A DNA stretch of 35,602 bases, taken from contig JAQXJI010000023.1 in the NCBI GenBank assembly GCA_029008615.1, forward strand, positions 1 to 35,602. The letters run 5' to 3'. The translations under genes were made by a program, and so were the position numbers. The DNA comes from Elusimicrobiota bacterium. GTDB lineage: Bacteria; Elusimicrobiota; Elusimicrobia; Elusimicrobiales; Elusimicrobiaceae. The notes below the pieces were generated by a model. It did no database searches. It was not told the DNA's origin and saw only the letters and a list, made by a program, of their open reading frames with translations. This document shows, piece after piece, positions 414 through 15,128 of the stretch; the stretch's first letter is position 1; every line of letters begins with the position of its first letter.

Positions 414-482
414 GGTAAAAGCAAATTGTAAGCCTAAATTATTGTCGTTCAGACGGAAACCTAAAACAAAATCATAAAACAG

Positions 483-511
483 TTGACTTGTTTTTTTTTT
501 TTTGATAAATT
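483..511 (+). promoter_or_regulatory. Poly-T spacer promoter, cassette 1 (T13)
   Basis: The -35 box is TTGACT (483-488) and the -10 candidate is TAAATT (506-511). The 17-base spacer is almost entirely a run of 13 T (491-503). The same promoter stands before the two paralogues with T12 and T11, giving spacers of 16 and 15. With the preferred sigma70 spacing of 17, this copy should be the strongest. Box assignment is by consensus match only. Confidence 0.6.
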
Positions 512-604
512 TAGCTCATAAATCGGCCTGCTAAAAGTGAGATATCTATGTTTTAGCTTAGGTTAGTTTAAACAGGCAGATTAACTCTAAAGGAGGTAAA
601 AAAG
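512..604 (+). promoter_or_regulatory. Conserved structured 5' leader, cassette 1
   Basis: This untranslated leader is almost identical in all three Cys-rich cassettes. AATCGGCCTG (521-530) can pair with CAGGCAGATT (573-582) over 9 of 10 positions with one G-A mismatch, closing a loop of about 42 bases. The strong Shine-Dalgarno AGGAGG (591-596) lies just after the stem, 8 nt before ATG 605. The leader also carries TTAGTTTAAAC (563-573), which matches a palindrome before the next gene. A role in translation control or mRNA stability is inference. Confidence 0.5.
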
Positions 605-1438
605 ATGCTAAAAAATAAAACGGTTAGGAAAAGATTTATAAGCAAAATCTTATCATTGTTAACTTTATTTGTAGTTGTATCCGCACCTGCTTTATTTGCG
701 GCAGTAGCTTCATGCACTGGTAATACAGGTACGAGTGGTACTAGATATGGAACAATTAACGGAACTTGTTATGCTTATTATTGCAAGGATGAAACAATGA
801 CTAAATTAGGCGGTGTAAATTCATCTCAATGTGCAAATTGCAGTGGAGTGAAATACGCACCTTCGGGGAATTGCGGAACATGTGAATATAAATGTTGCAG
901 CGATGGGAACTGGAGCGGATGTAACCAGGCGTGCCCAGATCCTAGTGCAGCTTGTTCAAGCAGTCAATGTTGGAACGGCTCAAAGTGTGCGGATAAGCCG
1001 GCATCAGGATTACAATATAACGGCAAATGTTATTTTAAATGGACAAACTGCAGCTGTAATAAAGGAACAGGCTGGAATTGCACGCAGACTCCTGCAGATA
1101 TTCAAGATGGCAGTTGGAGCGCTCAGACAAGCAAACAATTTACTACCAATTCTGGTCTATGTAGTACTAAAGTAGATATTTCTGAGAATGCTGTGTTATC
1201 TTGTAGGAGACAAGGGGCAAGTGTGCGTGGAATACCTTTGGAGAGAATGGGGGATGGTGAGGTTACTCATACCGGTGAGTGCTTTAAGGCTATCTCTTGT
1301 AAATGTAATAATACTGGTAAGACTATTCCAGTGGACCAATTAGGTAATATCCGTACGTACTGTTTGGGCACCGGCAGTTCTGGCGCCACATGCACTGGTA
1401 AGACTCTTACTTGTAGTTCACACAAGTCACCTTGTTGA
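605..1438 (+). CDS. Secreted 27-cysteine protein, paralogue 1
   Basis: I do not recognise the family. The 277-aa precursor starts with a lysine/arginine-rich n-region and a hydrophobic stretch ending near residue 32 (PALFA), a Sec signal peptide. Cleavage after LFA is likely; VASC at 34-37 also loosely fits a lipobox. The mature part holds 27 Cys (about 10%), many Gly, Ser, Thr and Asn, and no membrane segment, suggesting a disulfide-rich extracellular protein. The N-terminal half (to about residue 128, with CEYKCC and CSSSQCWNGSKC) is nearly identical to the paralogues at 2699 and 14298; the C-terminal half matches 14298 closely and 2699 only weakly. The start is fixed by AGGAGG 8 nt upstream. 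The upstream T tract makes on/off expression likely. A surface adhesin, colonisation factor or antigen is plausible, but unproven. Confidence 0.85.
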   Translation: MLKNKTVRKRFISKILSLLTLFVVVSAPALFAAVASCTGNTGTSGTRYGTINGTCYAYYCKDETMTKLGGVNSSQCANCSGVKYAPSGNCGTCEYKCCSDGNWSGCNQACPDPSAACSSSQCWNGSKCADKPASGLQYNGKCYFKWTNCSCNKGTGWNCTQTPADIQDGSWSAQTSKQFTTNSGLCSTKVDISENAVLSCRRQGASVRGIPLERMGDGEVTHTGECFKAISCKCNNTGKTIPVDQLGNIRTYCLGTGSSGATCTGKTLTCSSHKSPC

Positions 1439-2302: not shown

Positions 2303-2577
2303 GCCCAGATCGTAAAATACTCGCAAAACTTTTTAAATAGTAAATGCCGGTCAGGTTATACTGACGGCGTTTCTGTTGTGTCCTTCTTGCGTCTGTTCTT
2401 TTAAGCCGTTATATTGAAGTGGATTCAGTATCCTGTCGTAACTATTTACAATAAGATCCTGAAACAAGTTCAGGATGACGGAAATAACACAAGGGGGAGA
2501 TGACTTTTCAGGATAATAGATTGCAGTTCCTTTTGCGGTGTCGTACGTCGTGGCGGTTCGTTAAAAAGCGAAAACAG
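2303..2577. repeat. Gene-free spacer with palindromic repeats
   Basis: No gene was seen. A hairpin GCCGGTCAG/CTGACGGC lies at 2346-2368. The block 2430-2478 matches 14000-14048 at 47 of 49 bases. Its core is a perfect inverted repeat, ATCCTGAA (2456-2463) and TTCAGGAT (2469-2476). GTCGTACGTCG (2540-2550) is shared with the flank of the third cassette (14141-14151). The CAGGAT palindrome looks like a dispersed intergenic repeat. Confidence 0.5.
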
Positions 2578-2605
2578 TTGACTTGTTTTTTTTTTTTGAT
2601 AAATT
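2578..2605 (+). promoter_or_regulatory. Poly-T spacer promoter, cassette 2 (T12)
   Basis: TTGACT (2578-2583) and TAAATT (2600-2605) are separated by 16 bases that include 12 T (2586-2597). It is otherwise the same as the promoters at 483 and 14178. The conserved leader follows, with stem arms at 2615-2624 and 2667-2676. Confidence 0.6.
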
Positions 2606-2698
2606 TAGCTCATAAATCGGCCTGCCAAGTATGATATATCTATGTTTTAGCTTAGGTTAGTTTAAACAGGCAGATTAACTCTAAAGGAGGTAAAAAAG

Positions 2699-3535
2699 AT
2701 GCTAAAAAATAAAACGGTTAGGAAAAGATTTATAAGCAAAATCTTATTTTTGTTAGCTTTATTTATAGTTGTTTGTATTCCCGCTTCATTTGCGGCAGTA
2801 GCTTCATGCACTGGTAATACAGGTACGAGTGGTACTAGATATGGAACAATTAACGGAACTTGTTATGCTTATTATTGCAGTAATGGAACAGTAAATAAAT
2901 TAGGCAGTATGAATTCATCTTACTGTGCAAATTGCAGCGGCGTGAAATACGAACCTTCGGGGAATTGCGGAACATGTGAATATAAATGCTGCAGCGACGG
3001 GAACTGGAGCGGATGTAACCAGGCATGCCCAGATCCGAGTGCGGCTTGTTCAAGCAGTCAATGCTGGAACGGCTCAAAATGCGTCGATAAGCCCGGCAAA
3101 CAGTATGACGGCACATGTTATTATACTTGGTCAAGCTGTACTTGCAATAAGGGCAGCGGCTGGAGTTGCAGCGGGAAAAACTATGAAAGTCGAAAGACGC
3201 AAAAGGGAACATGGACATATTGGGGCGATAAGACTTATAGCTCCTCAAAACCGTCTTCTACATGTCAATATAGCGTTAATACTTATCTCAATGGTTCTAG
3301 CTATACTCCTACGGATGCACTTGCTACTACAGTGTGTCAGAAACAGGCGGCCGGCGTTACAGGTACACCGGTAGGTACGACTACATGGAGCGGAAGCTGC
3401 CGAGTAGTAGGATCCTGCTGGTGTGTGAGTTATAGCGGCTCAGTAATTGGTGATGGTAATTCTTATTGCAACACCAGTATGTATAAATGCCAAATAAGAG
3501 AGGTGAGTTGCTCTGAGGAGTCTGTTTGCGGCTAA
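2699..3535 (+). CDS. Secreted 27-cysteine protein, paralogue 2
   Basis: This 278-aa precursor has the same signal peptide and N-terminal Cys-rich domain as the 605 protein, almost residue for residue to about position 128. After that the sequence changes sharply (Tyr/Ser/Thr-rich, with SYTPTDALATTVC). A framework is still recognisable: C-x-x-Q-A-x-x-V-x-G-x-P, then GSC, a gap of four, and CWC. The total is again 27 Cys, so the cysteine scaffold is kept while the sequence between cysteines varies. It has the strong AGGAGG site and its own terminator, and is monocistronic. Function unknown; the pattern fits a surface-exposed, disulfide-stabilised protein under diversifying pressure. Confidence 0.85.
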   Translation: MLKNKTVRKRFISKILFLLALFIVVCIPASFAAVASCTGNTGTSGTRYGTINGTCYAYYCSNGTVNKLGSMNSSYCANCSGVKYEPSGNCGTCEYKCCSDGNWSGCNQACPDPSAACSSSQCWNGSKCVDKPGKQYDGTCYYTWSSCTCNKGSGWSCSGKNYESRKTQKGTWTYWGDKTYSSSKPSSTCQYSVNTYLNGSSYTPTDALATTVCQKQAAGVTGTPVGTTTWSGSCRVVGSCWCVSYSGSVIGDGNSYCNTSMYKCQIREVSCSEESVCG

Positions 3536-13530: not shown

Positions 13531-14177
13531 AATTTTACTCGGTCTAAGTTACGCACTCGCGTTTTTTACTCGCGAGCCGCTAGGTTCTCGCGGCTAGCAC
13601 TTCGCCGCTTTTAACTTGTGAGCTGTTAAGTTTTCATTGCTAGCAATTTTCCATATTTGTGTAAATTTAAGTTTTTTCTTCATTCGGATACCTCGCTCGC
13701 TCCGCTCGCATAGCTGCAAGTATACCTCAATCAGAATAAAACATAAATTTCCGTCAAATCTGAAAAATCACGCTGCTTCTATACTCGCACGCTGAAAATT
13801 TTACTCTTTCAGTCTTATTGACTTATCCCTGACTTCCCTAATATATTTGCTCTTCTTTTAAAAAACTTTTTCTTTATACTTCAATATATAAACTTACTCG
13901 GTTGCAAAATTCTTCCATAACTTTTTTACTGTTTAACGTAGGTCGGGCTTTGCCCGAAGGCTTTCCTTTTTAAGTTGTCATGCTGAACTTGACTTAAGCA
14001 TCCTGCCGTAACTATTTACAACAAGATCCTGAAACAAGTTCAGGATGATAATAACAAGGAATGTCAGGCGTAGCCTGACCTGCATTTATCTATTAATTTG
14101 CCTTTCTTTTATTATTCATTTTTTTAGTGTTGTTTGACGTGTCGTACGTCGGGGCGTTTTTAAAAATTAAAAAACAG
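13531..14177. repeat. Gene-free, repeat-dense spacer before cassette 3
   Basis: No gene was seen. In order it holds an AGCCGC/GCGGCT inverted repeat (about 13575-13600), hairpin element C (13641-13773), TCGGGC/GCCCGA (13943-13957), the CAGGAT palindrome block (14000-14048), GTCAGGC/GCCTGAC (14063-14079) and GTCGTACGTC (14141-14150). Several of these recur upstream of cassettes 1 and 2. I find no ORF with a good ribosome site. Confidence 0.55.
13641..13773. repeat. Intergenic hairpin element C
   Basis: The outer arms are those of element A (AAATTTAAGTTTT and its complement with flanking bases). The 44-base centre (13685-13728) is the reverse complement of the centre of element B (340-383) with four transitions. 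It is therefore a hybrid of the other two, showing that arms and centre can be exchanged or that the centre can invert. Confidence 0.6.
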
Positions 14178-14204
14178 TTGACTTGTTTTTTTTTTTGATA
14201 AATT
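14178..14204 (+). promoter_or_regulatory. Poly-T spacer promoter, cassette 3 (T11)
   Basis: TTGACT (14178-14183) and TAAATT (14199-14204) are separated by 15 bases with 11 T (14186-14196). By spacing this should be the weakest of the three. The conserved leader follows, with stem arms at 14214-14223 and 14266-14275. Confidence 0.6.
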
Positions 14205-14297
14205 TAGCTCATAAATCGGCCTGCGAAGTATGAGATATCTATGTTTTAGCTTAGGTTAGTTTAAACAGGCAGATTAACTCTAAAGGAGGGAAAAAAG

Positions 14298-15128
14298 ATG
14301 CTAAAAAATAAAACGGTTAGGAAAAGATTTATAAGCAAAATCTTATCACTGTTAGCTTTATTTGTAGTTGTATCCACACCTGCTTTATTTGCGGTAGTGC
14401 CTTCATGCACCGGTGTTGGGGATCAAAATACAAGATATGGCACAATAAACGGAACATGCTGGGCTTATTATTGCAATAATGGAACTGTTACAAAATTAGG
14501 AACCGTGGCTAATTCTTACTGTGCGGCTTGTAGCGGCGTGAAATACGCACCTTCGGGGAATTGCGGTACATGTGAATATAAATGCTGCAGTGACGGAAAC
14601 TGGAGCGGATGTAACCAGGTATGTCCAGATCCTAGTGCGGCTTGTTCAAGCAGTCAATGCTGGGACGGCTCAAAGTGTGCGAATCAGCCGTCATCAGAAT
14701 TACAATATAACGGACACTGTTTCTTTCATTGGAGAAACTGCACCTGTAATAAAGGAACAGGTTGGAGTTGCACGCAGATTCCTGCAGATATTCAAGATGG
14801 CAGTTGGGGCGCTCAGACAAGCAAACAATTTAATAACGCTACTGGTGTATGTAGTACTCGTGTAAATATGTCTGAGGCAGCTGTGCTATCTTGTAGGAGG
14901 CAAGGGGCAAGTGTGCGTGGAATACCGCTTGAGCAAATGGGGGACGGGAAGAGTGTTCATACCGGTGAGTGCTTTGCGGTTACCTCTTGTAAATGTAATA
15001 ACTCTGGTAAGACTCTTACGGTGGACCAATTAGGTAATCTCCGTACGTACTGTACGGGCTACGGCAGTACTGGCGCTACATGCTATGGTAAGACTCTTAC
15101 TTGCAGCACACACAAGTCGCCTTGTTGA
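14298..15128 (+). CDS. Secreted 27-cysteine protein, paralogue 3
   Basis: This 276-aa precursor is colinear with the 605 protein over its whole length, including the C-terminal half (CRRQGASVRGIPLEQMGDG and the ending CSTHKSPC). Many scattered substitutions separate them, but all 27 Cys are kept. The signal peptide is nearly identical; the first mature cysteine follows VPS instead of VAS, which fits a lipobox poorly and favours signal peptidase I. AGGAGGG lies 7 nt upstream of ATG. The gene lies more than 10 kb from the other two yet has the same promoter, leader and terminator, so the unit that was copied is the entire cassette. Function unknown. Confidence 0.85.
   Translation: MLKNKTVRKRFISKILSLLALFVVVSTPALFAVVPSCTGVGDQNTRYGTINGTCWAYYCNNGTVTKLGTVANSYCAACSGVKYAPSGNCGTCEYKCCSDGNWSGCNQVCPDPSAACSSSQCWDGSKCANQPSSELQYNGHCFFHWRNCTCNKGTGWSCTQIPADIQDGSWGAQTSKQFNNATGVCSTRVNMSEAAVLSCRRQGASVRGIPLEQMGDGKSVHTGECFAVTSCKCNNSGKTLTVDQLGNLRTYCTGYGSTGATCYGKTLTCSTHKSPC

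Follow-up and report, generated by a model that had tools for sequence, protein, structure and literature searches.

A candidate sigma-70-like promoter class with a pure poly-T spacer ahead of exported-protein genes in the Elusimicrobiales

Results

The window, that is, the whole 35,602-nucleotide stretch of DNA that was analysed, is contig 23 of the 42 contigs that make up the 1.66 Mb genome of an Elusimicrobiota bacterium (the source genome). Its forward strand carries three units, each consisting of a putative promoter box, a 5' leader and a gene for a Cys-rich exported protein.

477..511, + strand: putative promoter copy 1; AAACAG 477-482, TTGACT 483-488, T13 491-503, TAAATT 506-511; spacer 17
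512..604, + strand: 5' leader copy 1; probable stem GCCTG 526-530 / CAGGC 573-577; ribosome-binding site AAAGGAGG
605..1438, + strand: Cys-rich exported protein, 277 aa, 27 Cys; N-terminal signal sequence; no Pfam match
2572..2605, + strand: putative promoter copy 2; AAACAG 2572-2577, TTGACT 2578-2583, T12 2586-2597, TAAATT 2600-2605; spacer 16
2606..2698, + strand: 5' leader copy 2; architecture as in copy 1
2699..3535, + strand: Cys-rich exported protein, 278 aa, 28 Cys; 60% identical to the 605..1438 product; no Pfam match
14172..14204, + strand: putative promoter copy 3; AAACAG 14172-14177, TTGACT 14178-14183, T11 14186-14196, TAAATT 14199-14204; spacer 15
14205..14297, + strand: 5' leader copy 3; architecture as in copy 1
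14298..15128, + strand: Cys-rich exported protein, 276 aa, 27 Cys; 79% identical to the 605..1438 product; no Pfam match

The three boxes read TTGACT-TG-T(13/12/11)-GA-TAAATT, in which TTGACT corresponds to the -35 element and TAAATT to the -10 element. A pattern search for TTGACTTG-T(n)-GATAAATT returns exactly three matches in the window (483-511, 2578-2605 and 14178-14204) and none in 100 dinucleotide-preserving shuffles of it. This search confirms that the same promoter precedes all three Cys-rich genes (at 483, 2578 and 14178) and that T tracts of 13, 12 and 11 bases set spacers of 17, 16 and 15, as an initial sequence-only reading had claimed; counts and coordinates both hold. The likeness extends beyond the promoter, as the upstream AAACAG, the leader of ~90 nt and the gene start are also near-identical. 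Because the copies are 95-97% identical over the 100 nt downstream (leader and gene start), the window genes are duplicated paralogues. Is the T run, then, a passenger without a role that recent gene copies carried along with their promoter? The identity of the window copies would fit such an account, which the comparison with other genera below makes highly improbable.

Behind each box in the window come a leader of ~93 nt, the strong ribosome-binding site and an ORF (276-278 codons) whose product has 27-28 cysteines and a signal-like N terminus. The leader stem (GCCTG/CAGGC and its relatives in the window's genus) closes ahead of the ribosome-binding site. It is paired in 88% of cells across 17 leaders versus 22-46% when slid; covariation is modest, and the paired fraction is often matched by shuffles. 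The stem is probably real and may perhaps serve as an mRNA-stabilising 5' hairpin. Its assignment to a known riboswitch was rejected for want of support, and an Rfam search of the window returned nothing at the gathering score. The Pfam search that left the three Cys-rich proteins without a match gave, for one relative, EGF-like matches below threshold only. A profile search of the PDB with the shared Cys domain retrieved sushi domains of complement factor B and the GABA-B receptor (E 0.008 or weaker); these marginal matches cover ~20 residues and were set aside as a resemblance of Cys pattern.

Elsewhere in the window, an ORF with a signal sequence (MKVQAVLAGLLLMTSISVYS...; 1626-2242) is frameshifted at a T7 run (1752-1758), the remainder forming ORF 1757-2242; it is a pseudogene, a sequence error or a frameshift switch. 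Large hairpin-forming intergenic repeats occur at 300-420 of the window and upstream of boxes L011, L012, L022, L023, L055 and L047. They have the inner motifs CGAATAAAAAA...TTTTTTATGAGTTG in common and variable stems, and an Rfam search of the loci with these repeats gave two weak matches, well under the gathering score.

The earlier count of three copies holds for the window and not for the genome, in which a pattern search finds 38 boxes of the form AAACAG-TTGAC-T(8-14)-GATA-like. The genes behind them belong mainly to a large family of Cys-rich exported proteins with a common short Cys motif ending in RTCC..G.WS.WD..C, and at five places they are type IV pilin genes. Both are of the secreted or pilin type that is often under phase variation. 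Five boxes (L010, L016, L048, L052 and L057) have no long ORF close downstream; at L010, L048 and L052, a conserved ORF of ten codons (MKTSNKGGYG or similar) and a hairpin stand in place of a Cys-rich gene behind the box and leader. Because the pilin gene at L198 is preceded by a promoter of ordinary type that has no T run (TTGACA-N17-TATATT), the T-run spacer is not general in this organism. Two further proposals of the sequence-only reading find no support in the genome-wide view: spacers of 15, 16 and 17 are the normal scatter of a 38-member class and provide no evidence that three paralogues are set to different strengths, nor of the suggested eight expression states, as there are 38 copies whose tract lengths cluster round a single optimum, spacer 16.

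Long T runs are confined to the box. All 37 T/A runs of at least 10 bases in the source genome are spacers of this box, the 38th box having T8, versus 64-145 runs expected from composition, where both expectations are rough (64 by extrapolating the run-length tail of the window and 145 by a first-order Markov estimate). Because every such run is a box spacer against this expectation, the T run is kept by selection. The same confinement is seen in relatives. Box spacers account for 11 of 11 runs of 10 or more in genome G001 and for 23 of 24 long runs in G008, where the lone exception is terminator-like. G028 has 60 long runs, 25 of them in the strict pattern; among the others, 14 of 14 sampled prove to be this box with either TTGC.T or TTGTAT as the -35 element, and 21 were unsampled. 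Over long blocks of the G028 chromosome, the 60 runs keep to one strand, a pattern suggestive of co-orientation with replication. Of the 31 long runs in G012, 26 are in the strict pattern and one belongs to a variant box; the other four are odd and lie close to contig ends. At L240, L241 and L243 of G012, T runs of 16 and 21 follow TTGAC and GATA is missing, with the total length kept in two cases; all three loci lie near contig ends and are possibly assembly artefacts. Interrupted or A/T-mixed tracts are hardly seen in searches whose patterns favour pure runs.

Spacer length was surveyed in 315 boxes from 17 genomes, among the matches listed, the boxes not being independent of one another. 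Measured from TTGAC to GATAA, 182 of these listed matches have a length of 25, 61 a length of 24 and 24 a length of 26. Promoters of the sigma-70 type combine a -35 element like TTGACA with a -10 element like TATAAT at a distance of 15-19 bp, with an optimum of about 17. Among the matches listed, TTGAC is paired with TAAATT, TACAGT or TAATTT over a spacer of 16 in 58% of boxes and of 15-17 in 85%. The prefix ahead of the run, which includes TTGAC, compensates for tract length: among the matches listed, prefixes of 7, 8, 9 and 10 nt go with modal T counts of 13, 12, 11 and 10, so that the total stays at 25. The corresponding correlation, computed over these non-independent listed boxes, is a Spearman rho of -0.27 (p 1.6e-6), and six listed boxes with a 5-nt prefix depart from the trend. 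Tract lengths among the matches listed are unimodal round one optimum, with no two-state split. Source-genome spacers range from 11 to 18 and are mainly 16 and 15, and 20 of 26 strict boxes in G028 have T12.

These lengths bear on a plain structural explanation, in which the T run is a stiff A-tract that aids RNA polymerase or an activator in recognising the promoter class, its length is kept at the optimum and its slippage is unavoidable, without adaptive switching. The tight unimodal spacer length and the compensation between prefix and T count, both among the matches listed, favour this explanation, as does an optimum that is identical in several species. Against it, A/T-mixed or interrupted tracts of equal length would serve without slipping, yet they are hardly seen, and the source genome has no other run of at least 10. 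Both objections argue from absence and are compatible with a strict need for a pure T run. We regard the structural explanation as possible but somewhat doubtful.

The alternative -10 element GATAAA was rejected, as it would give a modal spacer of 14. Moreover, the source-genome variants GATACAGT and GATAATTT keep TA...T at the position of TAAATT, which speaks against GATAAA. In genus g6, many pilin genes have their ATG 6 nt downstream of TAAATT (TAAATTTTGCGTATGAACAAAATTTATC), at the expected start of transcription, and their transcripts are therefore probably leaderless. At L024, L026, L227-L239 and L246 of G028, an inverted repeat, GATAAATTTTGC-nnATGn-GCAAAATTTATC, surrounds the pilin ATG and places a copy of the -10 region within the coding sequence. 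Because position and spacing are conserved across species and the g6 pilin ATG follows TAAATT by 6 nt, the boxes appear to behave as promoters.

The box is specific to one lineage. Of 90 genomes of the family, 37 contain the relaxed pattern TTGAC-N(0-5)-T8-N(0-8)-GATAA, with up to 40 matches per genome; reversed-pattern controls are near zero, a few single matches are attributable to chance, and some family genomes are without the strict pattern. A scan of ~85,000 species genomes returned 23 stretches, all from Elusimicrobiales MAGs or from MAGs without a taxon name. The prefix varies by lineage: it is TTGACTTG in the source genome and G012, TTGACTG in G001 and G008, TTGACANNCG in G005 and mostly TTGAC[TCG]C[GA] in genus g6. 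Boxes precede pilin-type genes in genus g6 and both pilin and Cys-rich genes in the window's genus. The box persists in different species and genera whose prefixes, leaders and genes differ, its total spacing is kept, and the flanks diverge to ~50% while the T run stays; this already contradicts the account based on gene duplication alone. G015 (~1.4 Mb) has 108 matches to the type IV pilin N-terminal motif, and many of these genes have related promoters of their own, with T runs of ~15 and another -10 type.

The T run changes in length much faster than its surroundings. Among 35 flanked copies in the source genome, the T count differs in 10 of 16 pairs (62%) that are at least 94% identical over 100 nt downstream, a comparison between paralogues of one genome with small numbers and possible homopolymer assembly error, versus 71% of unrelated pairs. 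L019 and L020 have identical 60-nt upstream flanks, yet carry T12 and T11. Because the T count differs between near-identical pairs nearly as frequently as between unrelated pairs, slippage of the run is much faster than change in the flanks, and tract length has thus reached its stationary spread while the flanks are still within a few per cent of each other. The slippage-prone character that the sequence-only reading ascribed to the run is borne out by the 62% of pairs, 94-100% identical downstream, that differ in T count. The boxes therefore share two features with contingency loci: a repeat that changes in length faster than its flanks, as judged between paralogues, and a pure T run placed between -35 and -10, where a change in length would be expected to affect expression. 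Loss of mismatch repair was rejected as the cause of slippage because MutS is intact in 7 of 7 genomes, which also argues against a special mutator state. A search for further strains among viral contigs found none.

The flanks of the boxes are mosaic. Upstream cassettes (up to ~300 nt shared) and downstream genes (up to ~480 nt shared) are variously combined, with the change at the box; L049 and L056 are 99% identical downstream and 51% identical upstream, and other loci have the reverse pattern. This arrangement could suggest that, instead of or besides acting as a promoter, the box is a site of recombination or insertion at which exported-protein genes are shuffled. However, the fixed -35/-10 spacing, the fixed distance to the leader and start codon and the constant classes of downstream genes fit a promoter, and homologous recombination between dispersed copies accounts for the mosaic. 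We consider a recombination site scarcely credible.

Discussion

We propose, with a probability of roughly 0.6, that the boxes form a lineage-specific, sigma-70-like promoter class of exported-protein genes whose pure, slippage-prone T spacer is under selection. The class would drive dispersed families of type IV pilins and Cys-rich secreted proteins in the Elusimicrobiales from a -35 element (TTGAC) and a -10 element (TAAATT/TACAGT/TAATTT) that are parted by an almost pure T run, normally as a 16-bp spacer. We infer that the boxes are active promoters and that spacer length changes transcription. Selection would keep the run pure, while replication slippage would add or remove T's much faster than the flanks mutate. 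Most copies thus sit at the optimum or within one base of it, and in a minority the spacer drifts to short or long lengths, at which the promoter should be weak or inactive. Slippage could then shift single promoters off the optimum and back, altering the expression of single exported proteins, and probably tunes or phases single genes.

Such reversible, gene-by-gene variation in expression may itself be favoured by selection, as in contingency loci. The strongest argument for selected mutability is that non-slipping, interrupted or A/T-mixed tracts of the same length are hardly seen, in searches whose patterns lean towards pure runs. The strongest argument against it is the tight unimodal distribution of lengths, which is equally expected from plain stabilising selection. 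We advance only tentatively, as a possibility short of probable, that each genome holds a regulon of ~10 to 60 slippage-prone promoter loci, each having a pure T spacer as long as the genome tolerates at no other site, whose pilin and Cys-rich genes would be retuned independently and reversibly by one-base slippage.

Promoter-spacer phase variation is mostly known from single genes or small families of pathogens. Promoter recognition in Campylobacter and Helicobacter involves T-rich sequence ahead of the -10 element; there the T stretches are periodic and the -35 element is weak or absent. In contrast, the present boxes have a clear TTGAC -35 element and one unbroken T run. The opc gene of Neisseria meningitidis has a promoter homopolymer that we take to be a poly-C spacer. 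The length of this homopolymer tunes transcription of a surface-protein gene (PMC6389960). It is a single locus, opc, unlike the pure T run described here, which is genome-wide with spacing conserved across genera. In nspA of the same species, a one-base change in a promoter poly-A tract is associated with a change in expression; the tract is 5-6 A, there is no consensus -35 element and phase variation was not detected (PMC6389960). Thus, nspA resembles the present boxes in its promoter homopolymer and, lacking detected phase variation, counsels caution in the present case. A close known system is the vlp family of Mycoplasma hyorhinis, in which the length of a promoter poly-A tract switches each gene (Citti and Wise 1995, as described in PMC10502178). 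The vlp family resembles the present system in that paralogous surface-protein genes each carry a homopolymer in their own promoter region, and differs in being a small family of one pathogen with poly-A and demonstrated switching. The present boxes instead comprise 38 loci, two gene classes and a T run in many species, with putative switching. The literature searched yielded no paper on Elusimicrobium pilin promoters.

If such a regulon exists, it would be unusually large for a promoter-spacer contingency system and, on the literature searched, the first in the phylum. One putative promoter with a hypermutable spacer recurs tens of times per genome in a family of poorly known, mostly uncultured bacteria, and in the source genome every long homopolymer belongs to it. 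Its hundreds of tract lengths form a natural set for telling selection on spacer length apart from selection for mutability. The box also provides a simple sequence tag for locating pilin and Cys-rich genes in metagenomes, and the repertoire of pilins and Cys-rich proteins behind it is possibly the variable face of these bacteria.
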